From contig CM049314.1 in assembly GCA_026874595.1 (NCBI GenBank), positions 23,449,729 to 23,513,728 on the forward strand: DNA of 64,000 nt, in the 5' to 3' direction. A program made the position numbers and the translations under genes. The notes beneath the pieces were generated by a model. That model had not been told where the DNA came from. It made no database searches and was given only the letters and a program-made list of their open reading frames with translations. Below, in pieces: positions 11,892 through 48,569 of the stretch (position 1 is its first letter; each line of letters opens with the position of its first letter). Source of the stretch: Sipunculus nudus. Its lineage: Eukaryota > Annelida > Sipuncula > Golfingiida > Sipunculidae.

Positions 11892-14489
11892 AGCTCAGCT
11901 GACTATAAGTCATCTGAGCTATAGTCGTGGTCCATTGTCCGTCGTCCGTCCGTCTGTCCGTCCGTCCGTCCGTCCGTCCGTAGATGTGGCACGTTTTGAA
12001 ACCGTAAGACCTAGGAATCCAAAATTCGGCATAATGTTAGATGTCCCCAAGATCTCCTACCAAGCCGAAAACTGGGTGTTTGCAACTTCGTTCCTTTGAG
12101 AAATTAAGGAAAAACCTCAATTTTTTATTAAAAACCTATTTTCACCCTTCAGGACTGCCTAATATCAAAACCACTCATCTGTTTTACCTCATATTTACCA
12201 TAAATATTCCTCTATATAGTTCCTATGTACATGCCAGAAATTATGTCTGTATTATTTAATTTAAAAAAGTTATGGGCCCAAACATAATGCATTTTGTAAA
12301 AAATCAGAAAAGATATTTGATCACTTAACACAAAAAATGTTAATGCTATGGACCTTTTTTTCAGTAATATAACTTTAATTAATCAAAATTAAATTGTATA
12401 CCCAAAATTAGATGAAAATCTTTTAAATTTTTTAAAATATTAATAAAAATAAAAAATTGGTACCTTAAATTTTGCCCAACTTTGACCATGGCACGTTTTT
12501 TTCCTGTAAGTACTGTGGATTTAATTTTCACAGCATGTTTTTGTTAGCATTTCAACTGTTAACACCAAAAATTTTAAACCAGGTGATCAAAAACTGTAGA
12601 TTTTAATCAATTTTTCAAGCACCATGTAACATATTGTTTACATCAAGCTAGTGTTATGCAGTTTGCAAGAGCTCAGCTCCCCAACTTCAGCTCTAAGTTC
12701 CTTAAATTCGGCATACAGTGAGATGTCTCCAAAATGCCCTACCATGCCAAGAATTTGGTCACTAGGACATTCGAGATATTAATGAAAAACTTCATTTTTC
12801 CATTAAAAACCCATTGTTACACTTCAAGACTGCCTAATATCAAAACCACTGATCTGACTTTAATCATAAATAATATACATATTTTTCATTCTCTATGCAC
12901 ATGCCAGAATGATGTCAATATTGTGTAATTGTTTTAAGTTATATGCCCAAACATAATGCACTTTGTAAAAAATCAAGAAATATATTTACTCCCTTAAAAG
13001 AGCATTGCTGAAGCTAGAGATTTTTTTGTCAGGGATGTTACATTATTTAATCAAGATTCAATTGAATACCCAAAATTAGTTCTGAATTTTTCAAATTTTA
13101 TTTAGTATAAATATAAAATTTGTACCTTAAATTTTGCCAAACTGTGACCATGGCACGTTTGTTTCCCGTGAGCACTGTTGATATAATTTTCATATCATGC
13201 ACACATAAGCATTTCAGCTTTTTAGTTTAGAAAGCTGAAAGAAATTGGCCAAAAATTGTAGCTTTTATTAATGTTTTTTATGAGACCCTGTCAGACTTTG
13301 GCTCTCTCCAGCCCCTCTTGATTCACCTGTATGTTGACCTTGTTGACCTTTCATCAAATTATGCATGCTTGAGGCGAGGCATACATGGAATCCAGGCAGC
13401 TTATGGCAAGCCACAGTTGATCCAGGTGTCCAACCCAACTCATCTAGTAGTTTTAACCAAGAACATAACAAAAAACAATAAATTAATAAATTTTTATTGG
13501 TTTTTAATAACAAATGAAAGAAAAATAGAAAAGGAATTTGTTAGTTTATAATAACAGGAAATTAACTTGCAGTTACTGATGATATAAGAATCTTGTATCG
13601 ATGGGTAGAATGTCACATATTCCAAATAACACCATGCAGTCACCTATGGCATTTTTCAGTTCAATTTTAATGATAAAGAAGTAAATCATATTATTCATTA
13701 CTAATCATTAGGGATCATATGAAGGTAATTAGATAAAGATGCAGTTGATAATATTAATCTAGTTTCCTGCTGTGTCTAGTGTGTACATTGATGTGAAATT
13801 AGTCCAAAATGAATTTTTTACAGTTATTTTTTAATATAAATAAAAGCCATTAAACCAGGTACTTATGATCATTATTTAAATGTGTGAATTTTGTATATTC
13901 TGGATTCTCAACATCATTGTTTGGTGAAAACTGAATAAATTCCAGACATGGTGCAAAGACTTTGTAATTGTATTTAAATACGAATATGATTTTGTACTCC
14001 ATTATAAAATTTCTTGCATAAAGAATGGGAATTCAGGTAAAAATGAAAATATATGAATACTCGTGTAAATACTTTCAAAATGTATTCATGAATGCATTCA
14101 TGAATATATTCTTTAATATTATTTTAATAATCATATCAGTTATATTTCATTTTAAAAAATCATATGATTCTCTAATTATTTTAAATAAAAACAATATTTG
14201 TACTTTTTTTAATAAATAGTTAAACTCATATATTATATGTTCTGCTTATAAGTTATATGGCCAAGTCAAAATCTGTGTGACAATAGTACTCCATTTGTTA
14301 ATAAAATAAATGAAATCAATCCTCTTCCCTGTCTCCAAAGGTACTATCAAAATCATACATAAGCTAAACAACAACAACTCATAATACAGCTTATATTTAT
14401 TACCACACAAAACAAGCATGTGCCTCATTTCTAAATAATATTTTTTTATCATATATAACAGCTGAGCGTCGTGACCCATAGGTCCCTTG
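11892..14489 (+). mobile_element. Tandem-bodied element, subfamily B, inserted in a satellite unit
   Basis: The array breaks off inside a T-tract at 11,891. The head AGCTCAGCTGACTATAAGTC forms an imperfect hairpin with the following CATCTGAGCT and leads into a (TCCG)n tract at about 11,938-11,982. The body differs from the 338-bp unit. It has about two diverged copies of a ~650-bp unit (near 12,009-12,660 and 12,690-13,260), then AT-rich sequence. The tail CAGCTGAGCGTCGTGACCC...CCCTTG ends at 14,489, and the interrupted unit resumes in its T-tract. GCTCAGCTGAC at the head and GTCAGCTGAGC near the tail are inverted. No transposase frame is visible, so it looks non-autonomous. Superfamily is unknown. 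Confidence 0.8.
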
Positions 14490-16513
14490 TTTTTCTCTGT
14501 TTTGGAGACCTCAAAAGATGCCGTGATCTGTTAACAGGGCACAAATCGTAACAGCTGCACCTGGAATCTTCTCACTTTACATCCAGGGAGGTCCATGAAA
14601 AGTCTTTTCGGAAACCTGGAATTAGGTCTCTGTTTCCCATATTCTTCCATCTATGGGGCTCAGCAGTACCCCCCCATAATAATAAAAAATTCGATACAAA
14701 AGCTCAAATATCTGAACAACTAATGCATTGATCACCATGATTCTTTGCACGAATATATATCATGGAGTGTTTTATCAGTTTCTGCAGACTGTTGGTGCAA
14801 CCTGTATTTTTTTTATTTTTTTAAATTTTTTTCTCTATTTTTGAGACCACAAAAGATGCTGTCATCTGTTAACAGGGCACAAATCGTAACAGCTACACCT
14901 GGAATCTTCTCACTTTACATCCAGAGAGGTACATGAAAAGTCTTCTTGGAAACCTCGAATTAGGTCTCTGTTACCCATTTTCTTCCATCTATGGGGCTCA
15001 AAGTACACCCCAGTATAATAAATAATTTGATACAAAAGCTCAAATTTCTGAACAACTAATGCATTGAACACCATGATTATTTGCTTGGATATTAATCATG
15101 GAATGTTTTATCAGTTTCTGCAGACTGGTGGCCCCATCTCTATTTTTTCGATTTTTCACAATTTTTTTTCTCTGTTTTTGAGATCTCAAAAGATGCCGTG
15201 ATCTGTTAGCAGGGCACAAATCGTAACCCCTGGACCTGGAATCTTCTCCCTTTACATTCAGAGAGGTCCATGAAAAGTCTTCTTGTAAACCTGGAATTAG
15301 GTCTCTGTTACCCATATTCTTCCATCTATGGGGCTCAGCAGTACCCCCCCCCCCCCCAGAATAATAAAAAATTTGATACAAAAGCTCAAATATCTGAACA
15401 ACTAATGCATTGATCACCATGATTCTTTGCATGAATATATATCATGGAGTGTTTTATCAGTTTCTGCGGACAGTTGGTGCAACCTGTATTTTTTTATATT
15501 TTACAATTTTTTTCTCTATTTTTGAGACCTCAAAATATGCTGTCATCTGTTAACAGGGCACAAATCATAACCGCTGGACCTGGAATCTTCTCACTTTACA
15601 TCAGAGACGTACATGAAAAGTCTTCTTTGAAATCTGGAATTAGGTCCCTGTTACCCATATTCTTCCATCTATGCATTGGGCTCCGCAGTACCCCCCAGAA
15701 TAATAAAAAAATTTGATACAAAAGCTCAAATATCTGAACAACTAATGCATTGATCACCATGATTCTTTGCACGAATATTTATCATGGAGTGTTTTATTAG
15801 TTTCTGCAGACTGGTAGCGCCACCTGTATTTTTTTATTTTTTACGATTTTTTTCTCTATTTTGATGCCTCAAAAGATGCTGTCATCTGTTAACAGGGCAC
15901 TAATCGTAACAGCTGGACCTGGAATCTTCTCACTTTACATCCAGAGAGGTACATGAAAAGTCTTCTTGGAAACCTGGAATTAGGTCTCTGTTACCCATAT
16001 TCTTCCATCTATGGGGCTCGAAGTACCCCCCAGATTTATAAAAAATTTGATACAAAAGCTCAAATTTCTGAACAACTAATGCATTGAACACCATGATTAT
16101 TTGCTTGGATATTAATCATGGAATATTTTATCAGTTTCTGCAGACTGGTGGCCCCATCTCTATTTTTTCGATTTTTCACAATTTTTTTTCTCTGTTTTTG
16201 AGACCTCAAAAGATACCGTGATCTGTTAACAGGGCACAAATCGTAACCTCTGGACCTGGAATCTTTTCACTTTACATTCAGAGAGGTCCATGAAAAGTCT
16301 TCTTGTAAACCTGGAATTAGGTCTCTGTTACCCATATTCTTCCATCTATGGGGCTCAGCAGTAACCCCCCCCCCCCCAGAATAATAAAAAAATTGATACA
16401 AAAGCTCAAATATCTGAACAACTAATGCATTGATCACCATGATTCTTTGCACGAATATATATCATGGAGTGTTTTATCAGTTTCTGCAGACTGGTGGCGC
16501 AACCTGTATTTTT
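14490..16513 (+). repeat. Continuation of the 338-bp array, about six units
   Basis: The array resumes mid-unit after the nested element. From about 15,050 to 16,440 it matches roughly 7,360-8,750 unit for unit at an offset near 7,690, sharing private variants such as CAGATTTATAAAAAATTTG and the same expanded C run. The two sides are therefore copies of one segment within the array. Confidence 0.9.
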
Positions 16514-18595
16514 AGCTCAGCTGACTGAAAGTCATCTGAGCTATAGCGATCACTCTTTGTCCGTCGTCCGTCTGTCTGTCTGTCTGTCTGTCCGTCTGTT
16601 CGTCTGTCCGTCTGTCTGTCCGTTAACCAGGCACAAATCGTAACCGCTAGAACTGGAATCTTCTTACTTGACATCCTGGGAGGTCCATGAAAAATCTCCT
16701 TGGAAACCAGAAATTAGGTCTCTGTTACCAATATCCTTCGAGCTATGGGGCCCCAAAGTACCCCCCAGAAAAGTCCAAAATTTCATACAAAAACTTCAAT
16801 ATCTCATTAACTACTTGACTGATGGTCATGATTTTTGGCATACATATTGATCATGAGAGGTTCCATCAGTTCCTGAAGACAGGTGGCGCCACCTGTATTT
16901 TTCGATTTTTTACGAATTTTTTTCTATTTTTAGAGAATTTTAAAAATGTGAACATCTGTTAACAAGGCACAAATCGTAATGACTGGACTTAGAATCTTCA
17001 TTCTCAACACACTAAGAGACCAATGAAAAGTCTCCATGGAAACCAGAAATTAGGTCTCTGTTTCCCATATTCTTCGAGCTATGGAGCCCCAAATACCCCC
17101 AAGAAAAGTAAAAAATTTCAAACAAAAACTTCAATATCTCATTAAATACTTGACTGATGGTCATGATTTGTGGCATAACTATTGTTCATGAGATGTGTCA
17201 TCACTTCCTGCAGACTGGTGGTGCCACCTTTATTGTTCGATTTTTTACGATTTTTTCCTCTATTTTTGAGACCTTTAAGGATGCTGTCATCTGTTAGCAT
17301 GGCACAAATCGTAACAACTGGACCTAGAATCTTCATTCTTGACACACTGAGAGGTCCATGAAAAATATCCTTGGAAACCAGAAATTAGGTCTCTGTTAAC
17401 CATATCCTTCGAGCTATGGGGCCCCAAAGTACCCCCCCCCCCCCCCCCGAGTAGTCAAAAATTTCATACAAAAACTTCAATATCTCATTAACTACTTGAC
17501 TGATGGTCATGATTTGTGGCATAACTATTGGTCATGAGATGTGTCATCACTTCTTGCAGACTGGTGGTGCCACCTGTATCGTTCGATTTTTTACAATTTT
17601 TTCCTCTATTTTTGAGACCTTTAAGGATGCTGTCATCTGTTAGCATGGCAAAAATAGTAATGACTGGACCTAGAATCTTCATTCTCAACACACTAGAAGA
17701 CCTATGAAAAGTCTCCATGGAAACCAAAATTAGGTCTCTGTTACCCATATTCTTCGAGCTATGGAGCCCCAAAGTACCCCCAAGGAAAGTAAAAAATTTC
17801 ATACAAAAACTTCAATATCTCAATAACTACATCACTGATGGTCATGATTTTTGGCATACATATTGATTATGAAATGTTCCATCAGTTCCTGCAGACTTGT
17901 GGCGCCACCTGTATTGTTTGATTTTTTACGATTTTTTCCTCTATTTTTGAGACCTTTAAGGATGCTGTCATCTGTTAACGTGGCACAAATCATAACGACT
18001 GGACCTAGAATCTTCATTCTCGACACATTGAGAGACCTATGAAAAGTCTCCATGGAAACCAAAATTAGGTTTCTGTTACCCATATTCTTCGAGCTATGGA
18101 GCCCTAAAGTACCCCCAAGAAAAGTAAAAAATTTCATACAAAAACTTCAATATCTCATTAACTACTTGAATGATGGTCATGATTTGTGGCATAACTATTG
18201 ATCATGAGATGTGTCATCTGTTCCTGCAGACTGGTGGCGCCACCTGTATTGTTTGATTTTTTACGATTTTTTCCTCTGTTTTTGAGACCTTTAAGGATGC
18301 TGTCATCTGTTAGCATGGCAAAAATAGTAATGACTGGACCTAGAATCTTCATTCTCAACACACTAGAAAACCTATGAAAAGTCTCCATGGAAACCAGAAA
18401 TTAGGTCTCTGTTACCCATATCCTTCGAGCTATGGGGCCCCAAAGTACCCCCCCCCCCCGAGTAGTCAAAAATTTCATACAAAAACTTCAATATCTCAAT
18501 AACTACATCACTGATGGTCATGATTTTTGGCATACATATTGATTATGAAATGTTCCATCAGTTCCTGCAGACTGGTGGCGCCACCTATGTTATCT
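16514..18595 (+). mobile_element. Tandem-bodied element head with diverged units
   Basis: A new head, AGCTCAGCTGACTGAAAGTC, starts at 16,514 straight after a satellite unit's CCTGTATTTTT. A (TCYG)n tract follows (about 16,558-16,623), then six diverged units of about 340 bases. These carry the intact palindrome GGTGGCGCCACC or a near form, plus features absent from the satellite: TTCGAGCTATGG, AACTTCAATATCTCATTAACT and TTTTTGGCATACATATTGA. Its own tail is not obvious; the tail at 24,251 is a candidate. Confidence 0.75.
17432..17448 (+). repeat. C17 run inside a unit
   Basis: Seventeen consecutive C at the GTACCCCCC site of the tandem unit. Similar expansions at the same site of other units occur near 580, 7,660, 15,347, 16,365 and 18,449. 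Confidence 0.95.
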
Positions 18596-19356
18596 ATCAA
18601 GAGGGTACAAATTGCAACAACTGGACCTAGAAACTTCATTCTTGTCATGCAAGGAGGCCCATGAAGAGTGCCTGTGGAAACTTGAAATTAGGTCTCTGTT
18701 ACCCATATCCTTCAAGCTATAGGACTCTGAAGTATCCCTCAGAATAATGGACAATTTGATACAAAAGCTGAAGTATCTGAACAACTAATACGGAGATCAT
18801 CATGATTCTTTGCATGGATATTGACCATTAAGTGTTTTTAGCTCAGCTGACTGTAAGTCATCTGAAGTATCCCTCAGAATAATGGACAATTTGATACAAA
18901 AGCTCAAGTATCTAAACAACTATTGCAGTGATCACCATGATTCTTTGCATGGATATTGATCATGGAATGTGTCATCAGTTTCTGCAGTATGGTGGCGCCA
19001 CCTGTTTTTTTTTATTTTTACGATTTTTTTTCTCTATTTTTGAGACCTCATAAGATGCGGTCATCTGTTAACATGGCACAAATAGTAACAACTGGACCTA
19101 GAATCTTCTCTCTTGACATGCTGAGAGGCCCATGAAAAGTTTCCTTAAAAACTTGAAATTAGGTCTCTGTTACCTATAACCTCTGAGCTATGGGGCTCCG
19201 AAGTACCCCCCAGAATAATGGAAAATTTGATACAAAAGCTCAAGTATCTGAACAATTATTATATTGATCACCATGATTCTTTGCATGGATATTGATCATG
19301 AAATGTTTCATCAGTTTCTGCATTCTGGTGGCGCCACCTGTATTTTTTCAATTTTT
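18596..19356 (+). repeat. Older, rearranged units with a truncated head at 18,840
   Basis: At 18,596 one unit jumps from its palindrome straight to the ACAACTGGACCTAGAA part, an internal deletion. At 18,840 a head (AGCTCAGCTGACTGTAAGTC) runs directly into unit sequence (GAAGTATCCCTCAGAATAAT), having lost its (TCCG)n tract. A unit follows with GGTGGCGCCACCTG at about 18,990 and another near 19,328. Confidence 0.7.
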
Positions 19357-20551
19357 AGCTCAGCTGACTGAAAGTCATCTGAGCTGTAGGGATCACCTTT
19401 TGTCCGTCATCCGTCCGGCCATCCAGGCGTCTGTCTGTTAACAGGGCACAAATCGTAACCGCTAGACCGGGAATCTTCTTACTTGAAATCCTGGGAGGTC
19501 TATGGAAATTCTCCTTGTAAACCTGAAATTAGGTCACTGTGACCTATATTCTTCGAGCTATGGGGTTCTGAAGTACCCCCCAGAATAATGCAAAATTTAA
19601 TACAAAAGCTCAAGTATCTGAACAACTAATGCATTAATCACCATGATTCTTTGCATGGATATTGATCATGGAGTGTTTCATCAATTTCTGGAGATTGGTG
19701 GCGCCACCTATATTTTTTTTATTTTTTACGATTTTTTTTTCTCTACTTTTGTGATCTTTAAACATTTGGTCATCTGTAAACAGGGCACAAATCATAATGA
19801 CTGGACCTAGAATCTTCTGTCCTCACCTCCAGGGAAGCCCATAAAAGGTCTACATGGAAACCTGAAATAAGGTCCCTGTTACCCATATTCTGTGAGCTAT
19901 GGGGCTCTGAAGTACCCCCCAGAATAAAGATTTGGTCATATATTAACAGGGCACAAATCATAATGACTGGACCTAGAATCTTCTGTCCTCACCTCCAGGG
20001 AAGCCCATAAAAGGTCTATATGGAAACCCGAAATAAGGTCCCTGTTACCCATATCCTTCATGCTCTGGGGCTCCGAAGTACTCCCCAGAATAAAGATTTG
20101 GTCATCTGTTAACAGAGCACAAATTATAATGACTTGACCTAGAATCTCCTTTCTTGATATGCTGGGAGGCCCCTGAAAAGTCTCCTTGTGCACCTGAAAT
20201 TACATCTCTGTTACCCATATCCTTCATCCTATGCGGCTTTGAAATACCCCCCAGAATAAACATTTGGATTTGTTAACAGGGCACAAATCATAATAACTGG
20301 ACCTAGAATTTTATTTTTTGACATGCTGGGAGACCCCTGAAAAGTCATCTTGTAAACCTTGAAAATAGGTGTCTGTTACCCATATCCTTCATGCTACAGA
20401 GCTCCATAGTACCCCAATGAATATTGGATGATTTTATACAAAAGGTCAAGTTTGGAAAAAGTATTTAATTCAAATTTGACATTCAGATGATAAAATTACT
20501 TTTGTCAATGTCTTCCTGGTCAGCTGAGCGTCATGACCCCTGGGTCACTTG
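19357..20551 (+). mobile_element. Complete 1.2-kb tandem-bodied element nested in a unit
   Basis: The head AGCTCAGCTGACTGAAAGTC starts after GGCGCCACCTGTATTTTTTC and a further T-run. A (TCCG)-type tract, one full unit and three shortened units (about 160-190 bases, centred near 19,790, 19,950 and 20,110) follow. The tail GTCAGCTGAGCGTCATGACC...GGGTCACTTG ends at 20,551. The split unit then continues (T-run, ACAAATTTTTTCTG, GAGACCTCAAAAGAAGC). This is the cleanest short copy and defines head, body and tail. Confidence 0.82.
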
Positions 20552-21141
20552 TTTTTTTTTTTTTTTACAAATTTTTTCTGTATTTTTGAGACCTCAAAAG
20601 AAGCTGTCATCTGTTAACAGGGCACAAATTGTAACCGCTGGACCTGGAATCTTCTCACTTTACATCAGAGAGGTACATGAAAAGTCTTCTTGGAAACCTG
20701 GAATTAGGTCTCTGTTACCCATATTCTTCCATCTATGGGGCTCCCCAGTACCCCCCAGAATAATAAAAAGTTTGATACAAAAGCTCAAATATCTGAACAA
20801 CTAATGCATTGATCACCATGATTCTTTGCACGAATATTTATCATGGAGTGTTTCATCAGTTTCTGCAGACTGGTGGTGCTACCTGTATTTTTTCAATTTT
20901 TTACTATTATTTTTATCTATTTTTGAGATCTTAAAAGATGCGGTCATCTGTTAACAGGGCACAAATCGTAACAACTAGACCTAGAATCTTCTTTCTTGAC
21001 ATGTTGGGAGGGCTATGAAAAGTCTTCTTGGAAACATGAAATTAGGTCTCTGTCGCTCATATTGTCCGACTTATGGGGCTCCGAAATACCCCCCAGAATA
21101 ATAAAAAATTTCATACAAAAGTTCAAGTATCTGAACAACTA
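20552..21141 (+). repeat. Resumed units of the 338-bp family
   Basis: The right part of the interrupted unit plus about one and a half further units, with the usual landmarks (GTTAACAGGGCACAAAT at about 20,612 and 20,951; CCCCCCAGAATAATAAAA at about 20,752 and 21,090). Confidence 0.85.
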
Positions 21142-21280
21142 ATTTCAGGTTTCCACAGAGACTTTTCATTGACTTCCCTTGATGTCAGGTAAGAAGATTC
21201 CAGGTCCAGTGGTTACAATTATTGCCCTTTTAACAGATGACAGCTACTTCGAAGGTCTCAAAAATAGAGAAAAGAATTGG
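21142..21280 (-). repeat. Inverted fragment of the 338-bp unit
   Basis: Reading the minus strand gives the unit's order: CTCTATTTTTGAGACCTTCG, ATCTGTTAAAAGGGCA, CCACTGGACCTGGAATCTTC, then AAAGTCTCTGTGGAAACCTG. Plus-strand units lie immediately to the left, so orientation flips at about 21,142. Confidence 0.8.
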
Positions 21281-22756
21281 TGCACATGGCTAGAAATGAT
21301 GTCAGTATTGCATGTTTGTTTTAAGTTATCGGCACTTTGTAAAAAATCAAGAAATATATTTACCCCCTTAACATGAGAATTGCTGAAGGTAGAGATTTTT
21401 TGCCAGGGATATAACATTATTTAATCAAGATTCAATTGTATTCCCAAAATTAGTTTTTATAAGTTATTAGCATAAATATAAAATATATAAATTTAAAATC
21501 AGTACCTTAAATTGTGCTCAACTTCGGATATGGTATGTTTTTTCCCTGTAAGCACTGTTGATTTTTATATCTTGCACATGTAAGGATTTTAGCTTATAAA
21601 AGGAATTGATCAAAAACTAGCTTTTGTGAAAGTTTAAATGATACCATAGGCTGTGCTGAAGCCCCTCTATATGTCCCTACATTGACTTTTCAGGCCAATT
21701 AAAATAAAAAAAATGCATGCTTGAAGCTAGGCACTCTGCAGCCAGCCAGCTCTTGGGTTGCTTCGAATTCAGCTAGATCTAACTGTCCAACCCCCCTCTT
21801 CTAATATTTGTTTTGGCCATAAACATAACAATAAACTTTTTTTATTGTTATTATTTAATTATTATTTAATCATTTGTTAATGATAAGAACTTAAAAAAAA
21901 AATAAATGGAAAAGGAATTTATAGTTAATGAGTTACAGGGAATTACCTTGCAATTACTGATCATTTATTGATCTTCCATGGATGGCCAAAATTGTATTTC
22001 AAATGACACCATGCAGTCACCATTGGGTATTTTTCATTTCAACCATAAAAATGAAAAGTAAATAATTAAAAAAAATTGTTGTTTACTATTAGGGATTATA
22101 TGAAGCAAGAAAATGATAGACAAGGATGCAGTTGATTATATTAAATTAATCTAAATTTCCAGGTCTTTGCCAGGTGTTTAACTTGTTGGTTATATTTATT
22201 ACAAAATTTAAAAAAATATGTCAAAACTTTAAAATATTACTCAGACAATTGCTCATTAAAGATTTTAATATGTTTGACTTATAACTCATTGGTTGTAACA
22301 GTTGTTACATGATACTGGCTAAATAATCAAAATTTATATTACTGATCCTTTATTTCAGTTAATAAAATTAAACATTCCCAACTCCATTTTACTCCTGATA
22401 TAATATATTGGGTGTTTTAATCCTTGGATTAATTTTAACACATGTATTAGTTTCATAGCTGAGAATACTTTTTTTTCCTGGTACCATTTAAAAAATATAA
22501 ATATTCAAATTTTTCCTGTTAGTGCTGTGGGTTTAATTTTCACAGCATGTACACATAAGCATTTCATCTGTTAAAATCTGAAATTTGAAACTGATTGATC
22601 AAAAGCTGTAGATTTCATTCAAGTTTTCAAGCACCATGTCTTGATTGTTTACATCAGGTCAGTATAAATGCAGTGTACTGGGCAGTTACATAACACCTTC
22701 AGGTCTGACCTACTGCCACTGTGAGTGTCTGGGTCAGGCAGTAATTACCAGAGAGC

Positions 22757-22882
22757 CTCTCTTTCTCTCTTTCTTTTTCTCTCTCTCTGACAGTCTAGCT
22801 CGCTCTTTTGTCTCCCTCTCTCTCTCTCTCTCTACATGACAGTCTAGCTCTCTCTCTCCTACTTTTTCTCTTTCTCTCTCCA

Positions 22883-22927
<45 letters not shown>

Positions 22928-22929
22928 CC
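22757..22929. repeat. CT-rich microsatellite, then (CA)n
   Basis: Interrupted (CT)n and (TTTC)n tracts, ending in a pure CT run of about 40 bases (to 22,920) and a short CA run. It lies in the body of the subfamily-B element. Confidence 0.95.
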
Positions 22930-23396
22930 TTAATTGCCTCCCTTCCTCCCTCCAGCCCATTCTGCAATTTAGAAATGTGAATCAACTGAAATATTCACAA
23001 TCACATTGTATATGTTATACTGTAAATTTATAGTAACATTTGTAAACCTGGAAAAAAATTATGTAATGAAAAAAAGGAATTAATGCAAATATTGTTAATT
23101 TTTTCCTGGCTCAGTAGAGTGGGAAAAAAAAGATTTGCTTTGTTTCTCCATCTTTCTGCCTGTTTTAAATATTTAATGATCATGAATAAACTTTTTTTCT
23201 TATAAGCACTGTTGAATTAAATTTCATATTCTGTATGTATATGCAAGGGTGTTGTAACTCTCACCATCCCCTTCTTCATCCCACTGAGGCTTTGCTCCTT
23301 GGCACTGTGAACTATAGTTCTATGGCTATAGCATAAAATTTCATGATTAAAGAATATATCTACAGAGAGACAGAGGCGTTGTAACTCTGATCATAA

Positions 23397-23418
23397 CCCC
23401 CCCCCCCCCCCCCCCCCC
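23397..23418 (+). repeat. C22 homopolymer
   Basis: Twenty-two consecutive C after GATCATAA, within the subfamily-B body. Confidence 0.95.
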
Positions 23419-24392
23419 AATCAAGTCATTGCACCTGTGGAGTGGGAACGTTATGGCAACTGTATACATATCATAAAATTGATAAAAAAGGTTTACTAAA
23501 TAAATTGGATCTCATTAGACAAGTATGTAAACTGTTGAACTGTCAACAGCCTATCAAAAAGGTAACCAATGGAAACGCATGGTCAGATCTCAAAATATTA
23601 TTTGCAACATTTTCTTCAATCATATCAACCAAACATGGCCTAGTTTACCTCTTCCTCTCAAACTTTATCTACATTTCATCAAATTTTTAAGATTTTACCT
23701 TCCAGGTGTTTCAGTACTGTTGACTATTTGTCCATAGGTACCTATGTACATGCCAGAAATTATGTCAATATTTTGTAATATGTAGACGTCATGGGCATCA
23801 AAATAATTTACTTTGTCAAGACTGAAGAGATATCATGTCAAACAGTCACAAATTTATAAATCCCCTCATCAGCATAGTTAATCTTAACCTTATATCTGTC
23901 AAATTGAAATCTTGCAGTTTTCCATACACTATAAATCCTTCAACAAACAGCCTTATCATCATTATACCATTGCTTAGTATACTGTCATTGCATTCATATT
24001 TGCTCAAATAAATTGTTTTTTCAACCCCTCCCAAATAAATAAAAAATAAACCACTATATTTTACTCCATATTAATCCATCAGTCAGGTTATTTCATACAT
24101 CAATCACTCACATATTACATTATATTCCTTTATTAAAGCCCAACATGACCATGATATTCATGAGCTTTATCGACTAAATATAGTATCACAATGGTGATAC
24201 ATTTATAGTCCAATCATGATCAGCTGAGTGCCGTGACCCATGGGTCCCTTGTTTTTATTTATCAGACCTTCAAATGAAACGGTCATCTGACTGAAAGCCC
24301 ACTGAAATCCATTTCCTAGGATTCTTCACAAAATTCATGATATTTTTTCATTCTTGCTGTCATTTTGCTCATTGTTCAACATTCCTTGAATT

Positions 24393-27865: not shown

Positions 27866-28322
27866 AGCTCTGCTGACTGAAAGGGAGAGTCCACAGAGGT
27901 GTAGCTATGAGGCTTTGTCTGTCAACACAAAATGTTACTTCTTGACATGGAAACCTCAAGTTGAACATCCAAGGAGATCAATTTAAATTTCTGGGAAATC
28001 CTGAAATTAGGTTACTGCTGTTAGTGCACCCGAGAATAATTGAAAATTTGATACAAAACCTCCAGTATCTCGATAATTAATGCATGGAATGCCTTGATTT
28101 TTTTTAAGCTTATTGATCATCTACATTTACATCAGCTGCTTAAGATTAATGTGCCACTGTATTTTTTCTAATTTTTACAATTAATTTTTGAGACTGTCAA
28201 ATGACAGCAGTCATGTCAATTTCTAAGCTTTGGTTTCATTTAGTGTCCTTAAACCTTGTATGTTTCTCAATCATGACTGGTTTTATCAGTTCCTGAAGAC
28301 TGGTTGTGCCACCTGTATTTTT
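27866..28322 (+). mobile_element. Degenerate tandem-bodied element
   Basis: AGCTCTGCTGACTGAAAGGG at 27,866 after a T-run is a decayed head. TTTGTCTGTCAACACAAAAT stands where the (TCCG)n tract and the start of a unit should be. One worn unit follows (AATTAGGTTACTG at about 28,004, CCGAGAATAATTGAAAATTT at 28,029, TTAATGCATGGAATGCC near 28,076). Confidence 0.6.
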
Positions 28323-29440
28323 AGCAAAACTGTAAGCTTGTGTGATGGTGTGGAGTTGTCCGTCGTCTGTACACATAAACCCAAACTATCTCAAAAATGG
28401 CAGGAGCAAGCATCACCAATTTTTATGCAAAATATCAGTCATCTAAAAAACTTTGGTTAATTTAAATAATTTTTGCCTATTTTTTGCTACCTGCATATAC
28501 TTATATTATATAGGGAAAAGACTAAACAATTTTTTAAATCTTTTTCTCCAAAACTGTCCAGCCAAATTGTTCAGTATTTCATAGAAATGATCCAAAGAAC
28601 AATCTCTCTCAAATTTGTTCAAATAGGCTAAGTTCAGTAGTTTTGGCTGAGTTACAGGAAGCTGAACTTAGTCATTTGGTCTAATAGCATACTAAAATTA
28701 CAATATAAGAAAAGGCTGGCGCTATCATCACCAAATTTTATGTAAATGTTGATCACATGAGTCATACCGGTAATTGAAATTGAGGTATTGGTTCCACTTG
28801 CATCCACTTTTTTAACCCATAATTTCTCAAGAATAGGCAATTTTAGGCAAAAATCAAATGTTTTGGGATTGAGCTTTTTGTGGCACCACCTGTATTGATT
28901 TACATTTTATGAGGAAAAAGAAAAAAAATCTTGAAAACCTTTGAAAATCTTCTCCAAAATCATTCAGCGTAATTGTTCAATATTTCACAGAAATGATCCA
29001 AGAGAGAAGCTCTCTCAAGTTTGTTCAAATGGTTGGGTTTAATGAATTTTGGGCGAGTTACAGGAATATGCACTTAGTCATTTGGCCAAGTAAGCATACT
29101 AACATAACAGTCTCAGAAAGGACAGGAGCTAGCATCACCAAGTTTTGTGCAAATGGTGGTCACATGGCTCATATTTGAAATTGTGGTTTTTGTTGCACCA
29201 CCTACATCGACCGATTTTTACAGGCAAAAACCTTGAAATTGTAGCCTCTTTAAGCTTTTTGTTTTATGCTGACACTGTGAAGCTTAATGGTTTAACTTTT
29301 AAAAGAATTATCCAAGGGTAGGGTTCTTTCAATTATATAAGAATAGATTAGGTTTATTGATTTTTGGTAGATTCATAGTAAGCTGAAGTTGTTGTTTCAA
29401 CTTCTGAAACATCACATAAAAAGGATTTTCGGGTGGCCTT
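28323..29440 (+). repeat. Tandem-bodied repeat with a ~406-bp unit
   Basis: It starts inside the T-tract after GGTTGTGCCACCTGTATTTT with a different head ending in GTCCGTCGTCTGT (about 28,358). About two and a half diverged units follow. AATGATCCAAAGAACAATCT at 28,587 and AATGATCCAAGAGAGAAGCT at about 28,993 give the period; a shortened third copy lies near 29,304. GAGTTACAGGAA (28,650; 29,054) and CATCACCAA (28,727; 29,132) keep the same spacing. No coding frame. Confidence 0.7.
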
Positions 29441-29689: not shown

Positions 29690-30246
29690 ATCCCCTGCTA
29701 CAGTTGAGAGGGCGATATAGTGATCAGCTCCATCCGTCTGTACATCCGTTTATCCGTCGTTCCATCCATCTGTCCGTTTGTTAGTCTGTCTGTAAACAAT
29801 TTTATGCGAGTGATATCTCGAAAAGTTTTATTCTGTTTTACTTCAAATTTTGGTTCCATGTGCACCTAATGGGTCTACACAGTTGTTTAGGTGTTGGTTA
29901 CACTTAAATGATTTTTGGATTTTTTTATGAATTTTTTTTTGCAAAATTTTAACATTTCATATGTGACCCGTACGGTATCTTGAAAAGTTTTATTCAGATC
30001 TACGTCTAATTGTAGTAGCAACTGCATCTTATGGGTCTCAAGAGCTGTTTAGGTTGTGGTAACACTTGAATGATCTTTTTATTATTTTATGAATTATTTT
30101 ATACAAAATTTGTTTATTTTATATGTGAAACTATTTCTCAAAAAGTTTTACTTGGATCTACATCTTATTACAGAAGCAGGTTCATCTTAAGATTCTCCAG
30201 ATTTGATTTGGGTTTGGTCACACTTGAATGATTTTTGGATTTTTTA
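29690..30246 (+). repeat. Tandem-bodied repeat with a ~160-bp unit
   Basis: The head CCCCTGCTACAGTTGAGAGG leads into CCGTC-type tetramers (about 29,730-29,790), then three units. AAAAGTTTTATTCTGTTTTA near 29,820, AAAAGTTTTATTCAGATCTA near 29,980 and AAAAGTTTTACTTGGATCTA near 30,141 show a period of about 160 bases. Each ends with a CACTTRAATGAT motif. Confidence 0.75.
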
Positions 30247-30770
30247 AACGCCCGTCTAGGACAGGATGTATTATGGTTTACCCAAAGTCCCTCCATAAAT
30301 CCATCTGTCCACTCTCCATTAACTTTTAATTTCACCATAATAACTTACCAGGGCTTTGATGGATTTTCATGAAACTCACCATAAATACATAACAATAGTT
30401 TTTCTCACCCAAGTTTGATTGAAGGCAAAAACCCAGCATATTTAATGAAGTCAGAGGTCACAAGGCTACTTTGTGGGGTCACCACAATAACTCACAAGGA
30501 ATACAATTGATTTTGATCAAACTCAGCAGAAATTTAATCAAAATAATATCTTGCCTAATTTCATTTTCCTGCATATTTTATATCTATGCATGTTTAATAA
30601 GGTTAGAGGTCACCCAAGTTTGTTGGCACCATGGTGACTTAATTACCAAAAATCTTATGGATTTTCATGAAACTCAATAAACATATTTACATTTCCAGTT
30701 ATTCTAAACATTTTGATAAAAAAATCTTATGAATATGCAGCTTGAAAAAAGCATTGTAACCAAGTTTTTT
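30247..30770 (+). repeat. Tandem-bodied repeat with a ~155-bp unit
   Basis: Another head (ACGCCCGTCTAGGACAGGAT, then TATTATGGTTTACC and CCATCTGTCC) begins right after the previous repeat. Three units follow. The core TTGATGGATTTTCATGAAAC (about 30,357) recurs as TTGATTTTGATCAAAC (about 30,508) and TATGGATTTTCATGAAACTC (about 30,657). AGAGGTCAC occurs at about 30,452 and 30,606. Confidence 0.72.
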
Positions 30771-40379: not shown

Positions 40380-40494
40380 GGTCGCTGTACTAGAAGCCCT
40401 GAGGACTGATATCTTCATGTACTCCGGTCACACTCGAGGACCGTTAGCAGCCCAGATGTACTCACTGACCCAGGAAGGATACATAGTGGTCGCA
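40380..40494 (+). CDS. FASTKD-like protein: exon with the first part of the RAP domain
   Basis: A 115-base exon: the acceptor TTTAATCCAG ends at 40,379 and the donor is GCA|GTAAGT at 40,495. Its first G completes Arg from the exon at 26,107. The 38 following codons begin VAVLEALRTDIFMYSGHTRG and end QEGYIVVA. The layout matches the RAP domain of FAST-kinase-domain proteins: R-V-A-[VL], an aromatic/Tyr strand, [NH]-x-R-x-P-L near a Gly, a variable helix, then L-x-x-x-G-Y-x-V-V. RAP domains are predicted RNA-binding or nuclease-like folds. FASTKD proteins act in mitochondrial RNA processing and stability. It exits in phase 0. Its neighbour exon completes the domain. The call rests on motif order read by eye; another RAP protein is possible. 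Confidence 0.72.
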
Positions 40495-43482
40495 GTAAGT
40501 CCAGCTTTCCCTGAATGGTTAAGGTCACATGACCTAATGTGATTTTTCTTGTCAATTTTTCTTCCGTGATTATGTTTGTCATTTATTTGAGGAAATGTCA
40601 AGGGTATGTTGGTTGCATGCTGACAGCGTTTGACTGAAATGCATCTGAGCTATAGCAATCACTCTTTGTCCATTGTCTGTCTGTCTGTCCGTATGTCCAT
40701 TAACCAGGCACAAATCGTAACCACTGGGCCTGGAATCTTCTCACTTGACATCCAGGGAGGTCCATGAAAAATCTCCTTGGAAACCTGAAATTAGGTCTCT
40801 GTTATCCATATTCTTTGAGCTCAGAGGCTCTGAAGTACCCCCCAGAACAATGGAAAATTTGATACAAAAGCTGCAGTATCTGAATAACTAATGCATTGAT
40901 CACTATGATTCTTTGCAGAGATATTGGTCATGGAATGTTTCATCAGTTATAGCAGATTTGTGGTGCCACCTGCATTTTTTTTTTTAGCTCAGCTGACTGT
41001 AAGACATCTGAGCTATAGCGATCACTCTTTGTCCGTTGTCCGTCTGTCTGCCGTGCAGTCCATCTGTCCGTCCGTCTGTCCGTTAACCAGTCAAAAAATC
41101 GTAACTGCTGAACCTAGAATCTTGTAACTTCAAATTCTGAGAGGTCCATGAAAAATCTCCTTGGAAACCAGAAATTAGGTCTCTGTTACCAATATCCTTT
41201 GAGCTATCGGGCCCCAAAGTACCCCTCTGAATAGTAAAAAATTCCATACAAAAACTTCAATATCTCATTAACTGCATCACTGATGGTCATGATTTTTGGC
41301 ATACATGTTGATCATGACAAGTTCCATCAGTTCCTGCAGACTGGTGGCACCACCTGTATTTTTCAATTTTTTACGAATTTTTTTCTCTATTTTTGAGACC
41401 ATAAAAAATGTGAACATCTGTTAACAGGGCACAAATCGTAACAACTGGACCTAGAATCTTCATTCTTGACACACAGGGAGACCCATGAAAAGTCTCCATG
41501 GAAACCTGAAATTAGGTCTCTGTTACCCATATCCTATGAGCTATGGAGCCCCAAAGTACCCCCCAGAATAGTCTAAAATTTCATTCAAAAACTTCAATAT
41601 CTCATTAACTACATCACTGATGGTCATGATTTTTGGCATACATATTGATCATGAGATGTTTCAACAGTTTCTGCAGACTGGTGGCGCCACCTATATTTTT
41701 CGATTTTTTTACGAATAGTTTTCTCTATTTTTTAGACCTTTAAGAATGTGAACATCTGTTAACAGGGCACAAATCATATAGACTGATTCTAGAATCTTCA
41801 TTCTCTACACAGTGAGAGACCTATAAAAAGTCTCCATTAGAACGAGAAATTAGGTCTCTGTTATCCATATCCTTTGAGCTATGGGGCCCCAAAGTAACCC
41901 CCCAGAATTGCAAAAAAATTTCATACTAAAACTTCAATATCTCATTAAATAAATCACTGATGGTCATGATTTTTGGCATACATATTGATCATGAGATGTT
42001 TCATCAGTTCCTGCAGACTGGTGGCGCCACCTGTATTTTTCGATTTTTTACGAATTTTTTTCTCTTTTTGAGACCTTAAAAAATGTGAACATCTGTTAAC
42101 AGGGCTCAAATCATAACAACTGGACCTAGAATCTTCATTCTTGACACACAGGGAGACCTATAAAAAGTCTCCATGGAAACCTGAAATTAGGTCTCTGTTA
42201 CCCATATCCTATGAGCTATGGGGCCCCAAAGTACCCCCAAGAATAGTCAAAAATTTCATACAAAAACTTCAATATCTCATTAACTACATCACTGATGGTC
42301 ATGATTTTTGGCATACATATTGATCATGAGATGTTTCAACAGTTTCTGCAGACTGGTGGCGCCACCTTTATTTTTCGATTTTTTACGAATAGTTTTCTGT
42401 ATTTTTTAGACCTTTAAGAATGTGAACATCTGTTAACAGGGCACAAATCGTATAGACTGGACCTAGAATCTTCATTCTTGACACACAGGGAGATCCATGG
42501 AAAGTTTCCATGGAAACTTGAAATTAGGTCTCTGTTACCCATATCCATTGAGCTATGGCACTCCAAAGTACAACTCAGAATAATGGAAAATTTGATACAA
42601 AAGGTGAAGAATCAGAACAGTTAATGCAGAGATCCCCTAAATTGCTTGCATGGATATTGATCATGAAGTGCTTCATCAGTTTCTGCAGACTGGTGGCAGC
42701 ACCTGTATTTTTTTTTAACAAATTCTTTTCTCTATTTTTGAGACCTGTAAAAATATGAACATCTCTTAACAGGGCACAAATCATAACAACTAGACCTAGA
42801 ATGTTCATTCTTGACACACAGAGAAACCCATGAAAAGTCTCCATCGTAACCTAAAATTAGGTCTCTGTTACCCATATCCTTTAAGCTATAGGACTCCTAA
42901 GTATCCCTTAGAATAATGGAAAATTTGATACAAAGGCTGAAGTATCTGAACAACTAATGCAGAGTTCACCATGAATCTTTGCACGGATATTAATTATGGA
43001 GTGTTTCATCAGTTTCTGCAGACTGGTGGTGCCACCTAAATTTTATTCAATTTATCAATTTTTTTTCTCTATTTTGGAGATCTTTAAGGATGCTGTCATA
43101 TGTTAACGTGGCACAAATTGTAACAACTGGACCTAGAATCTTCATTCTTGTCATGCAAGGAGGCCCATGAAAAGTGTCTGTGGAAACCTGAAAGTAGGTC
43201 TCTGTTACCCATATCCTTCACACTATAGCACTCTGAAGTATCCCTCAGAATAATGGAAAATTTGATACTAAAGCTGAAGTATCTGAACAACTAATGCAGA
43301 GATCACCATGAATCTTTGCATGGATATTCACCATTAAGTGTTTTATTAGTTTCTGCAGACTGGTGGAGCTACCTTTATTTTTTTAAAGTATACACATTTA
43401 TTCTCTGTTTTTGAGATATATAAATACAGACACAATCTTGGCCTGTTGGTTAATCTGTTTGATGCTTAAGTTGAATTGGTAT

Positions 43483-43486
43483 ATAC
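43483..43486 (+). other. Target-site duplication, left copy (ATAC)
   Basis: ATAC directly precedes the left LTR and reappears directly after the right LTR (47,874-47,877). Confidence 0.7.
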
Positions 43487-44303
43487 TGTTATGGAGTAGG
43501 AAAGTGCATATTTGTGACTTAACACATATTTCAAGGAATATTTCACATTTCATATTTCACAAATTTAAGCTCAGTTTCAGGCATGTCAGACTGAACAATT
43601 AATGACTTCTCATAATTGATGACACCCAACAACCAGTCATCCGGTCACACACATATAGGCTTCTCTCCCAATTTAATCAGAGAACAGCACACCAAACCAT
43701 TAAGGTCTATTTTAAGTCTGTACAAACAGAAATAGTGTCACAGAATGACTTATGTGTTTAGTCTTTATGAGGGAATGGTAGAACACAATTAAAGCATGTT
43801 ATTTTATGAGACTCCACATGTGTATATAAGCACTGTCCTCCAAATAGGACTTGTAGGTCAGTCTATAACTGGATGTATGTCAGGTCAGACTTGGGATTTT
43901 CCAAAATACTTTCATCCAGTAAAATCATGCAAAACTTATTAAGTCAACTTATAACTCTGATGTAATTGTGACCTACTTTGAGTCATCCAATAAGGTTTAG
44001 TTTTTATGACGAAATGCAGAAATATGGATATGTAAATCTCATATGTCACGTGTAAGCTCTGTAACAAAACTATCTGTAGTGCGCGCTGAGAGAGAGTGAG
44101 TCAGAGAGGCTGGGCGGCTCTCTCAGAGAGAGTGAGTCAGGGAGACTGGGCGGCTCTCTCAGAGAGAGAGACTGTCCCAGACCTCTTGCTATTGAATAAA
44201 GACTTCTATCATCAAACGGGTCTTGGAACATTGTCAGCCACGCGCATCAGCAACTGCTTGTGATACAGTGTGAGGACATCTCCCCAACCCCACCTTCGTA
44301 TCA
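43487..44303 (+). mobile_element. Left LTR, 817 bp
   Basis: It begins TGTTATGGAGTAGG and ends GTATCA, and is nearly identical to 47,060-47,873. A TATATAA box at 43,823-43,829 and a poly(A) signal AATAAA at 44,195-44,200 fit a plus-strand U3-R-U5 order. Between them are two ~38-bp tandem copies of AGAGAGTGAGTCAG...TGGGCGGCTCTCTC (44,085-44,165). Differences from the right LTR are concentrated in the last ~40 bases. Confidence 0.9.
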
Positions 44304-47059
44304 TTATGGTGAAGACAGATCCCCAACCCCATATTATATCATTTTGGTTGATGAACCGGGATTCACTTCCAGCACATCACACCAAGAAAAACCGACAATG
44401 CTGCCAGCTGGAGTGAAGAAAGAAGATCCCCCTCTTGCAACCACAGGTGCCATTGACTGGTCTAACAACCCATGCACTAGAACCTCACCCAGGTACCGGA
44501 TCACAGCCTAACATCAAGAATGTCATCTCTGCTGCTGAAGGTATCACACTTTTGCTAAGAACTCTCTCTTCAAACTTTAACTTGGCTGCAGTTTCTCAGT
44601 GCTCTGCTTGAGAAGATCAAAGACTCTCTCTGTATCTTTAAACCAAAAGGACACTGTAAACCAGCGCAATGCTTTAACAGTGATTTAAAGTTGCAAAAAT
44701 GACATTTTTCGCTAAAATATGCTGTGATATCTCAACTAGTGATCATCATTGTTCCTGACCAGCCACAAAAAAAATCAATATCGGGACAAGCCAGCTTCAG
44801 GCCTATGTCAACAATACTACTGGCAATACCACGTGCACTGTGTGTTATCTCACAACAAGTTCCTCGCTATGTTCCTGCAACTACTAGAAGCAGATTTGCC
44901 GTTCTACCGCTACCTTCTGCATCACCTTCCATACCATGACTCCAGAAAGAAAAAAAGAAAACCAAGTCAGCTGAGAAGACAACTTAAGACCCAAAGATGA
45001 CGAGACTTCCTGAGGTAATGAAAAACAAAACCAGAGACTTTGAATTTTAAATACCCAATGTAAAATTTGGGGCATTTCAGAATATTTTGCATGTATATGT
45101 TGTAAACAAAAAAAAAATATGTTTGTTGTACACTATAACTTTCTCTTATTGCTGTGTCATTGTTGTAATATGATATAATTTATAGTGTGTCTATCTTATT
45201 GATATGGTTAGGAATACGTTTACAAGACCACAGCAAAAGATGTAGAACTGTCAATGTTAGATTTGATGCAGTTATGTCTATCTCAGTTGTTAATATGCAA
45301 TGTCACAAATGGCTGTATTGATTTTAATACAATAATTCCTAGAGAAGAGCAATATGCAAAGCCATCAGCATGTTAGCATTCATTTATATTGAGATTTTCT
45401 CATGTGTTGTTCCATACCAAATCAATGGTTATCATAATGCTCTCTTGGCTATAAATTTAATGGAATGGTAGCACATTGTGTAACAAAAGCACAATGCGAT
45501 GCTTATTTTCAATTGTCACAGTTTGGTCCTCAAACACGAGTTCATGGGAAGCCCCCCAATATACAGGGAATTGGACAAACTGGGGAGTTTGATGACTCCA
45601 ACAGTCAATAATGCACTGACCTGTGGTCACACTATTGCCTCAAACAAGGGTTTGATTTGGTTAACCTCATCAATAACTGGAAATGCCAGGCAAGATATGT
45701 AGGTTAGCACAGGAATTCTTCTCAAAGGAATTCACATTTACGCATACTATGACAGACATGTTCATGAGCGAATGCATTCTGGTCGCTGCATTCATGATAC
45801 TGATAACCCATAAACCAATATGTGGAATGACAAGGATTTCAAGCATTAACATTTTTCATTTAATTTAAATCATCACTCTACAGATGTATGTTTGATCTTA
45901 CACATAAATAGCATGCAATAAAATTACCATCAAAATCCTATAGGTATAGATCGATACATGCACCTGTCCGTGAATTATTTCATTATCATCACATTTTCAC
46001 ACATATTTCGCCTTGCTCCTGCACAGAAAATTGGTAATCAATGGGAATATATGTACAACATTCCTCTATCGTTAGGAATGACCTCATTCTGTCATGTACT
46101 TATCCGCTGGTACCGTACACCAGTTGTGTTTTGCTAAAGGAATAGCAAATCAACCTTCCATTATTCTCAAGTCAACTTGTCCCAATGGCAAGTATGAAAG
46201 CCAAGATGTATTTTGAATCATTGGTACTGATCAACACACAGAGCAGATAGTCATGTACATTTTGTATATATTAAACTCTTAGGCACAGAGTATATATACT
46301 TTGTCAGATTAGGAATTCATGATCACTTTTCCCATAGGAATTATATGATTAGCTACAGGCATTGCTAATTCACTTGTTATAATTGGTAATGCATATTGCT
46401 GTTTGACAGAACATCTTTATGTAACATCAGTAACATTATGTTCAAATGGTTCACATACTTTGAATTATTCCATTGCTTATACTGTAGGCATTGTACTTGT
46501 ATAATCTGTGTATGATGTTATACTCATATCCCTTAAGATATTTTTTTATTCTACTTAGATGCTGTCATACTTATATAATCTAATGATTTAATGCTTATAT
46601 TAGGATGTCAAGTAATGTAACCATAGTTGTGATGTTGTTCCTGATTACTTAGAAATCAGCATTTTCTCTTCTAGATAATGTTTAGGATAGTCAATTTACA
46701 AACCAAAATTGTCTTTAGAACATGTATGTGTAGCTATAGATTTAAATATGCTGTTTCTCAGCTTATATAGGATAGCTTAAGCACTGTTGTTGTAATCCGA
46801 CATCATTTAAAATAGGCACTAGTTCATTCCTTACACTGTTACATCTGGACATGTGACATGTTCATGTATTCCATATCTATATTGATATGTGTAATCTATT
46901 ACACCTCAGTGATGTAATACTTTACTCTCTACAGACATATATCCATCACATTTTTTATTTCTGTCACCTACATTCCAGTTCTCCGTCTGAAATAACTCTA
47001 AAACTTTTCTCCGACTTTGCCAGTGAGGCCGGAGCCTCATTCTGAATACCAGAGGGATA
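44304..47059 (+). mobile_element. LTR element interior, no recognisable gag-pol
   Basis: The interior is 2,756 bases. TGGTGAAGACAGATCC about three bases after the left LTR is a possible primer-binding site; its tRNA was not identified. AGAGGGATA before the right LTR is a short polypurine tract. No reverse transcriptase, RNase H, integrase or protease motif was seen. The longest frames are 83 codons: one from 44,260 overlapping the LTR edge, and one at 44,749-45,000 ending in a Lys/Arg-rich tail. The element is therefore probably non-autonomous. A 33-45-bp near-duplication (CCCCAACCCCA...TATCATT) straddles the LTR end. Confidence 0.75.
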
Positions 47060-47873
47060 TGTTATGGAGTAGGAAAGTGCATATTTGTGACTTAACACAT
47101 ATTTCAAGGAATATTTCACATTTCATATTTCACAAATTTAAGCTCAGTTTCAGGCATGTCAGACTGAACAATTAATGACTTCTCATAATTGATGACACCC
47201 AACAACCAGTCATCCGGTCACACACATATAGGCTTCTCTCCCAATTTAATCAGAGAACAGCACACCAAACCATTAAGGTCTATTTTAAGTCTGTACAAAC
47301 AGAAATAGTGTCACAGAATGACTTATGTGTTTAGTCTTTATGAGGGAATGGTAGAACACAATTAAAGCATGTTATTTTATGAGACTCCACATGTGTATAT
47401 AAGCACTGTCCTCCAAATAGGACTTGTAGGTCAGTCTATAACTGGATGTATGTCAGGTCAGACTTGGGATTTTCCAAAATACTTTCATCCAGTAAAATCA
47501 TGCAAAACTTATTAAGTCAACTTATAACTCTGATGTAATTGTGACCTACTTTGAGTCATCCAATAAGGTTTAGTTTTTATGACGAAATGCAGAAATATGG
47601 ATATGTAAATCTCATATGTCACGTGTAAGCTCTGTAACAAAACTATCTGTAGTGCGCGCTGAGAGAGAGTGAGTCAGAGAGGCTGGGCGGCTCTCTCAGA
47701 GAGAGTGAGTCAGGGAGACTGGGCGGCTCTCTCAGAGAGAGAGACTGTCCCAGACCTCTTGCTATTGAATAAAGACTTCTATCATCAAACGGGTCTTGGA
47801 ACATTGTCAGCCACGCGCATCAGCAACTGCTTGTGATACAGTGTGGGGACATCCCCAACCCCACATTGTATCA
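47060..47873 (+). mobile_element. Right LTR, 814 bp
   Basis: It matches the left LTR from TGTTATGGAGTAGG to TATCA, with TATATAA at 47,396-47,402 and AATAAA at 47,768-47,773. The visible differences from the left copy (GTGTGGGGACATCCCC for GTGTGAGGACATCTCCCC, and CATTGTATCA for CTTCGTATCA) lie near the end. The high identity implies a fairly recent insertion. Confidence 0.9.
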
Positions 47874-48569
47874 ATACTACCATTCAGATGATAAGATTTC
47901 CTTTTGCGAATCTCTTTGAAGTCAGCTGAGCGTCATGACCCATGGGTCACTTGTTCAAATGTTACGCATTTTTACTCAATTTTTTATACCTTCAAAAATG
48001 TGGTTGTCCGTCAACAGGGCATAAATCGTAACCATTGGATCTAGAATCTTCTATCTTGACATCTGTGGAGGTAAATGAATAATCTCCCTGGAATCCTGAA
48101 ATTAGGTCTCTGTTACCCATATCCTCTGAGCTAAGCTTCAGTTGAATGGGGATACCACCTACAAAATTTGGCATTTAGATGATAAAATTCCTTTTGTGAA
48201 TGTTAATTTAGTCAACTGAGCGTCATAACCCATGGGTCACTTGTTTATGAATTTTATGTTTTTTTTCTAAATTTTGAGATTTTCAAATGAAGTGTTCATT
48301 GATTAATAGTCACTCAAAGTAAGATAAACTAGTTTGATTACTGATGAGATAAGCTCAAAATGACAGTTAGGAGGAGGGTTCTCTGGTGCTTATTAAATCA
48401 ACCTCCTCCCATATTGTGACAAGTGCCTGTGATTATAAGCTTATACCAACACATTTTTCACATTTCAAATTGGCAGTTGATTTAGTCTTCTGGGTATCAT
48501 TTTCTAGTTCTGCTTGTCATATTGATCACTATCAGCCTTAGTGACAGTTGTTTAATTCTCTAACTTAAG

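Follow-up and report, generated by a model that had tools for sequence, protein, structure and literature searches.

The DNA considered here is a stretch of 64,000 nucleotides from the sipunculan Sipunculus nudus (contig CM049314.1, below C9, of a genome of 1.43 Gb in 153 contigs), referred to as the window, which holds a satellite array (array A) and several copies of a family of mobile elements whose ends fit the non-autonomous Helentrons of the HINE type. The original prediction, made from the letters alone, was that such an element repeatedly lands in the T-rich tract of its own unit of about 338 bp, either by seeking T-runs near its own sequence or by a replicative process that favours homologous sites. 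The analysis reported here establishes that HINE self-nesting and satellite carriage are real and of a known kind, and that self-targeting fails its test at the one T-run open to counting.

Nested insertions and rebuilt empty sites

The elements are recognised by their 5' ends (heads), which read AGCTCAGCTGACTGWAAGTCATCTGAGCTATAG after a T-run, and by their 3' ends (tails), which read CAGCTGAGCGTCRTGACCCATGGGTCMCTTG before Ts. The scan of the window for heads, run at up to 7 mismatches, found heads at 11892, 16514, 18840 (truncated), 19357 and 40986, and the tails ending at 14489, 20551, 24251, 47953 and 48243 were likewise found by scan. The features are as follows, in window positions; negative numbers in the text lie upstream of the window.

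1 to 11891, + strand: satellite array A, the part in the window, with a unit of 337-338 bp (Tandem Repeats Finder, TRF: period 337, 35.2 copies)
11892 to 14489, + strand: I1, a HINE copy that sits in a T-run of array A and consists of a head, a GTCC microsatellite, a body lacking the 337-bp unit, and a tail
14490 to 16513, + strand: array A again after I1 (TRF, unit matches)
16514 to 20551, + strand: composite HINE inside array A, with three heads (16514; 18840, truncated; 19357) but a single tail
18840 to 18872, + strand: truncated head (31 bp), fused with unit sequence at a TCTGA common to both
19357 to 20551, + strand: part of the composite, running from head to tail; the place where it meets the upstream unit is an inherited junction
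20552 to 21143, + strand: array A again, then its end (unit matches)
21144 to 24251, + strand: a piece of unit in inverted orientation, with a body related in part to I1 and a tail
40627 (approximate) to 40985, + strand: an older, degenerate HINE copy to the left of I3, with a degenerate head and one unit as far as its T-tract
40986 to 47953, + strand: HINE copy I3, in the T-tract of the older copy, with 6.6 unit copies (TRF) and an insertion of the long terminal repeat (LTR) type
47954 to 48243, + strand: the same older copy to the right of I3, including its tail (tail scan, unit matches)

Three insertions in the window (11892-14489, 16514-20551 and 40986-47953) split older units of the family within the T-tract. 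When the flanks of I1 are joined, an intact unit is obtained, with 93.8% identity over 340 columns to intact units of array A. The array unit has no match within 11892 to 14486, and the description of 11892-14489 as a unit-bearing element was rejected on this ground. For the tail at 20551, the join with the flank of head 16514 reaches 93.2% to units, against 87.0% at best with the flank of head 19357; together with the continuity of the array, this shows that the tail closes the insert starting at 16514. The segment 19357-20551, predicted as a complete element splitting a unit of its own, was accordingly discarded as a separate insertion, since it leaves the poorer empty site and recurs within a larger mobile composite. 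The joins at 11892/14489 and 16514/20551 differ from units mainly in the length of a T-run, and the extra Ts are not assignable to element or target.

The third of the predicted insertions stands as well, in a degenerate older copy: the flanks at 40986/47953 are the two sides of one such copy, and their join is 77.6-79.0% identical to other units, with unit matches at 40700-40980 and 47969-48125. The older copy has its own tail, ending at 48243, and its head, degenerate by eye, lies in a left part with 75.0% identity over 68 columns to the head region of I1. This nest (about 40627-48243) keeps both tails, as expected in situ. The LTR-type insertion in I3 (about 43485-47849) is bounded by two direct repeats, 99.3% identical over 820 columns; by eye it has TG...CA ends and ATAC on either side, resembling a target duplication, and 50 stops were counted between 44300 and 47000 in the one frame tried.

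Two further parts of the original prediction survived incompletely. The tails at 24251 and 48243 are followed by sequence that is T-rich and, by eye, like a degenerate unit, with no unit match; the head proposed at 28323 is indeed preceded by a unit fragment (28023-28188), but it differs from the HINE head and was missed at 7 mismatches.

As regards its surroundings, array A has its start near -21799, some 21.8 kb before the window, and reaches 21143; two inserts divide it into three blocks of 33,691 bp (-21799 to 11891), 2,027 bp and 592 bp. A further head of the family lies at -23981, and the body in 21144-24251 is 68.8% identical over 922 columns to 12896-13757 of I1; head -23981 and tail 24251 may be the two ends of one outer HINE of about 48 kb, with array A as its core. 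A second tandem repeat, of about 290 bp, was seen between that head and the array (about 6770-8030 of region L011, that is -23230 to -21970). Within array A, equal best matches 1,684 bp apart (about five units) hint at higher-order repeats, and a lag-identity test for these, blurred by indels, gave no clear outcome.

Ends and class of the elements

The abundance of the head is not a matter of chance: its 28-bp sequence has 8,421 exact copies in the genome and its reversed control none. The one head folded (16514) forms a hairpin of -10.6 kcal/mol (z -3.44, none of 200 shuffles being as good). In three of the five window tails (14489, 20551 and 47953), 9-12 nt of GCTCAGCTGACT are repeated in inverted orientation between the two ends, at a distance of 1 nt from the 5' end and of 22 nt from the 3' end; the repeat is weaker in tail 24251 (9 nt, one base further in) and in tail 48243 (6 nt). 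A GTCC or TGTC microsatellite stands behind heads 11892 and 16514. The longest of the 10 open reading frames of at least 100 amino acids overlapping 11892-48243 has 162 amino acids; judged by this length, the elements have no coding capacity. As for the landing site, TTTT precedes 28 of 34 heads in the DNA examined, a number which includes copies of one composite, and the joins rebuild a unit at above 93% in two of the three window insertions. The predicted landing in T-runs is thereby borne out, in T-rich or TT sites and with no target duplication.

The hairpin at the head, the asymmetric subterminal inverted repeats, the microsatellite and the short reading frames are published traits of HINEs (PMC4067079; PMC7492417, as far as their accessible text goes), and for this reason, together with the core repeats of about 337 bp and the landing between Ts, the ends are taken to fit non-autonomous Helentrons of this type. 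In the available part of PMC4067079, Helentrons, HINEs and DINE-1 are described with a 3' hairpin, to which a tail palindrome of 4-5 bp may correspond here, and, as in the present family, with TT landing, a variable number of boundary Ts and, in some copies, tandem repeats. Their palindromic subterminal inverted repeats sit 2-4 nt inside the 5' end and lie deeper at the 3' end (38-60 in mite families); the corresponding distances in the present family are 1 nt (the 5' end being as set here) and 22 nt. A canonical Helitron, defined in the same source by 5'-TC ... CTRR-3' and landing between A and T, was rejected, the ends here being AGCTCAG ... CTTG between Ts. A HINE shares its ends with an autonomous Helentron that carries Rep, helicase and endonuclease. 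At least 143 matches to Helitron_like_N, candidates for such a partner, occur in the genome, several of them in open frames of more than 2,000 amino acids; on the 5' side (6 kb) of the one match inspected, no head of the family was found at up to 9 mismatches.

Elsewhere in the window, a CCGT/GTCC-rich stretch followed by repeats of about 160 bp (29690-30250) may belong to another HINE-like family, and a further tail of the present family, with four unit matches beside it, lies on the minus strand within 62427-63967.

Own-unit landing, T-runs and an inherited junction

Whether a preference for the own sequence exists depends on how many T-runs the unit offers. In array A, 315 of the 377 T-runs of at least 5 in the left block lie within 50 bp before a GAGACC anchor, 61 lie one unit further back (the next anchor having apparently been missed) and 1 elsewhere, so that landing in the T-tract is expected of any element that seeks T-runs. 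In the local 94 kb, which include the window, the unit holds 2,573 of the 5,072 same-strand TT steps in runs of at least 5 (51%); nesting is therefore expected there from T-run density.

Throughout the genome, the counts of exact strings are 5,244 for ATTTTT followed by a head, 34 for the unit's own CCTGTATTTTT followed by a head and 35,569 for CCTGTATTTTT alone, while ATTTTT as a whole was estimated at about 4.65 million (652 in 200 kb; bootstrap 3.96-5.39 million). Hence CCTGTATTTTT makes up 0.76% of ATTTTT and 0.65% of the ATTTTT-heads: 34 own-unit heads are seen where 40.1 are expected (ratio 0.85, two-sided p 0.38), for exact strings at one T-run of the tract, the unit's first. At this T-run there is no excess of landing. 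The original prediction had named a comparison of flanks with T-runs as the result that could overturn it, and its preference for the own sequence is not supported where it can be counted. Genuine self-insertions do occur, as these 34 heads and 24 exact junctions between a tail and a unit tract testify; the latter lie at 24 separate places across contigs, a count without a baseline, for which the relevant strings are GGGTCMCTTGTTTTTC and the bare unit tract TTTTTCTCTRTTTTTGAGACC.

Sampled regions give pooled counts that are illustrations and not rates, since L005 and L006 overlap and L001-L007 and L032-L037 were picked for unit content; L008, which overlaps L007, was left out of them and of the count of unit variants below, and matches to the head's own palindrome read backwards were removed in the pooled counts only. 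In 20 round-number 10-kb regions on C1-C12, none of 7 heads and none of 6 tails adjoins a unit, the unit share being 41 of 5,847 steps (0.7%). In L001-L007 the unit adjoins 1 of 6 heads and 2 of 5 tails (share 24.5%), and in L032-L037 it adjoins 6 of 15 heads and 2 of 10 tails (share 56%), all six of these heads being internal to the composite or to its variant in L033.

A much more abundant own-unit junction is that at 19357, inside the composite, where CTGTATTTTTTCAATTTTT precedes the head: this 33-mer has 675 exact copies in the genome. A 45-mer over the same junction, which overlaps the 33-mer in part (neither lies wholly within the other), occurs in 565 exact copies with the rare upstream variant GCATTCTGG and 2 with the common variant GCAGACTGG. 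Among 94 unit copies examined, 86 carry GA (common) and 5 carry TT (rare) at the variant site, and a head follows all 5 TT units, compared with 2 of the 86 GA units; the DNA examined includes the overlapping L005 and L006. Moreover, the scar of the truncated head (33-mer at 18840) has 525 exact copies. On C1 and C2, the junction lies 440-520 bp downstream of the scar on the same strand for 48 of 77 listed scars, and within 2 kb there is no scar-junction pair on opposite strands or in reverse order. The split of 565 to 2 and the pairing with the scar lead to the conclusion that a single event accounts for most copies of this junction, which spread as the composite moved; homology-guided landing was rejected as its source. 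A naive tally of 34 + 675 = 709 of 5,244 would suggest strong self-targeting, although most of it comes from one ancestral junction.

The composite has moved as a whole, as is seen at three loci and in the 48 pairs on two contigs. It recurs in L036 (95.3% over 3,612 columns from 16955 on) and in L037 (98.2% over 1,972 columns starting at 18588, and 90.8% over 2,104 for the left part), where the outer flanks are different and are not units. In L037 the site occupied by the composite (reverse strand, 127-4863) is a T-run within an unrelated tandem repeat with a period of about 38 bp, a repeat which the joined flanks match across the join (89.1% over 138 columns), and in L036 the joined flanks match non-unit DNA of L015 across the join (82.2% over 118 columns). 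Such continuity identifies both as ordinary landings outside the unit. In L033 a variant of the composite has two heads 1,047 bp apart. A head-to-tail dimer of elements was also noticed on the reverse strand of L034 (3604-3610), where one TTTTT is common to a tail and the next head.

Proposed mechanism, alternatives and known systems

Targeting of T-runs, followed by incidental self-insertion and then by copying of a composite, is very probably the right explanation of these observations. HINEs land between the Ts of a T-run, oriented so that Ts precede the head. The core unit, with a tract of about 45 bp that mostly holds four T-runs, makes an array a T-dense target, and self-insertion would occur at a rate close to the T-run share. 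Once a copy is nested, rolling-circle transposition that begins at the outer head would end at the first tail it meets, that of the inner copy, and so yield a composite in which several heads go with a single tail. A composite of this kind, its heads being those seen at 16514, 18840 and 19357, has been copied widely, carrying along its own-unit T-tract junction. Copying from the outer 5' end to the first 3' end after self-insertion has been proposed for Fusarium Helitrons (PMC5148889), and the multiple termini of maize Helitrons have been ascribed to nesting (PMC3288121), both according to the accessible parts of these papers.

Several results weigh against this explanation or the class assignment beneath it. 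The palindrome of the tail (stem of 4-5 bp at GACCCATRGGTC) folds no better than shuffles in the two tails folded (z -0.81 and 0.15). The test of own-unit landing uses exact strings at a single T-run and an ATTTTT total estimated from 200 kb, and the bootstrap extremes give p 0.057, a slight deficit, and p 1.0. Within the local 94 kb, where the unit's share of T-run steps is 51%, it adjoins 5 of 6 heads and 3 of 6 tails, although the heads at 18840 and 19357, which are among those five, are internal to the composite. On C1 and C2, an exact partner is missing for 29 of the 77 listed scars and for 55 of the 103 listed junctions; these may be decayed copies or variants like that of L033. Finally, no intermediate, with the outer copy's own tail around the inner copy, was found for the composite, and the first-tail rule consequently draws on the several-heads-one-tail pattern at a few loci.

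The same data bear on three other accounts. That homology between the core unit and the target array guides landing could be argued from the several nested copies in one window, the 675 copies of one own-unit junction, the 24 tail-to-unit-tract junctions and the units beside most local heads; but the unit's first T-run receives 34 heads where about 40 are expected, the 675 junctions are mainly one inherited event and the copies in L036 and L037 sit outside the unit, which makes this preference very improbable. The composite could also have arisen without self-insertion, if rolling-circle copying on a circular template ran on where a tail had been lost and gave tandem copies truncated at the 3' end. 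A model of this kind is described for plant Helitrons (review PMC12628747, in its accessible part), and bypass of the 3' end has been shown for the bat Helraiser (PMC4778049, likewise). Three heads with one tail would be its product, and the two heads of L033, which share the same upstream unit, are spaced as a tandem duplication would leave them; each internal head, however, follows a T-run within a unit, like an ordinary landing, and this origin is considered rather unlikely. As for unequal crossing-over or gene conversion between arrays, which would set ends beside unit tracts without any landing, the units of array A and of the elements are homologous and the scar at 18840 suggests a deletion at the shared TCTGA, but at 11892/14489 and 16514/20551 the flanks, once joined, restore a unit, and composites stand at non-array sites; of the accounts considered, it is the hardest to believe.

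Related systems have been described elsewhere, as judged from the accessible text of the sources cited. Cg_HINE of Crassostrea gigas (PMC7492417) is likewise non-autonomous, with satellite-like central repeats and a GTCY-type microsatellite; it has a 3' palindrome, for which the tails of the present family offer a candidate, and it lands in T-rich or TT sites without target duplication, with empty sites and landing in repetitive regions; landing in other transposable elements and repetitive regions is reported, and that text mentions neither landing in its own central repeats nor a test against T-run share. The pearl/CvA elements and Cg170/BIV160 satellites of bivalves (PMC5139131; PMC12628747; PMC11136912) represent modular elements with satellite-like repeats that also stand as satellites, a likeness by description, and complex multi-insertion loci are reported. 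Composites of Fusarium (PMC5148889) and maize (PMC3288121) have several 5' ends and one 3' end, as here. The duplicated 5' parts in Fusarium are typically shorter than 200 bp, whereas satellite-bearing segments of about 0.5-2.3 kb separate the heads here; in a further difference from Fusarium, the junction and the scar of the present composite are each found in hundreds of exact copies. In the literature searched, most subscription papers being outside reach, no counted test of own-unit landing against T-run share was found.

The family in S. nudus is, then, a satellite-bearing, high-copy case of the several-heads-one-tail composites known from fungi and maize, and the genome counts indicate that repeated residence in the own repeat is possible without homology-guided landing. 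Since the preferred landing site is present in every core unit, any HINE with such units would offer a permanent target to other members of the family. Tentatively, self-insertion might act as a ratchet together with copying that runs from the outer head as far as the first tail, which would add heads and units at the 5' side, make multi-headed elements and seed long arrays; if this were true, a landing rate above the T-run share would not be needed.

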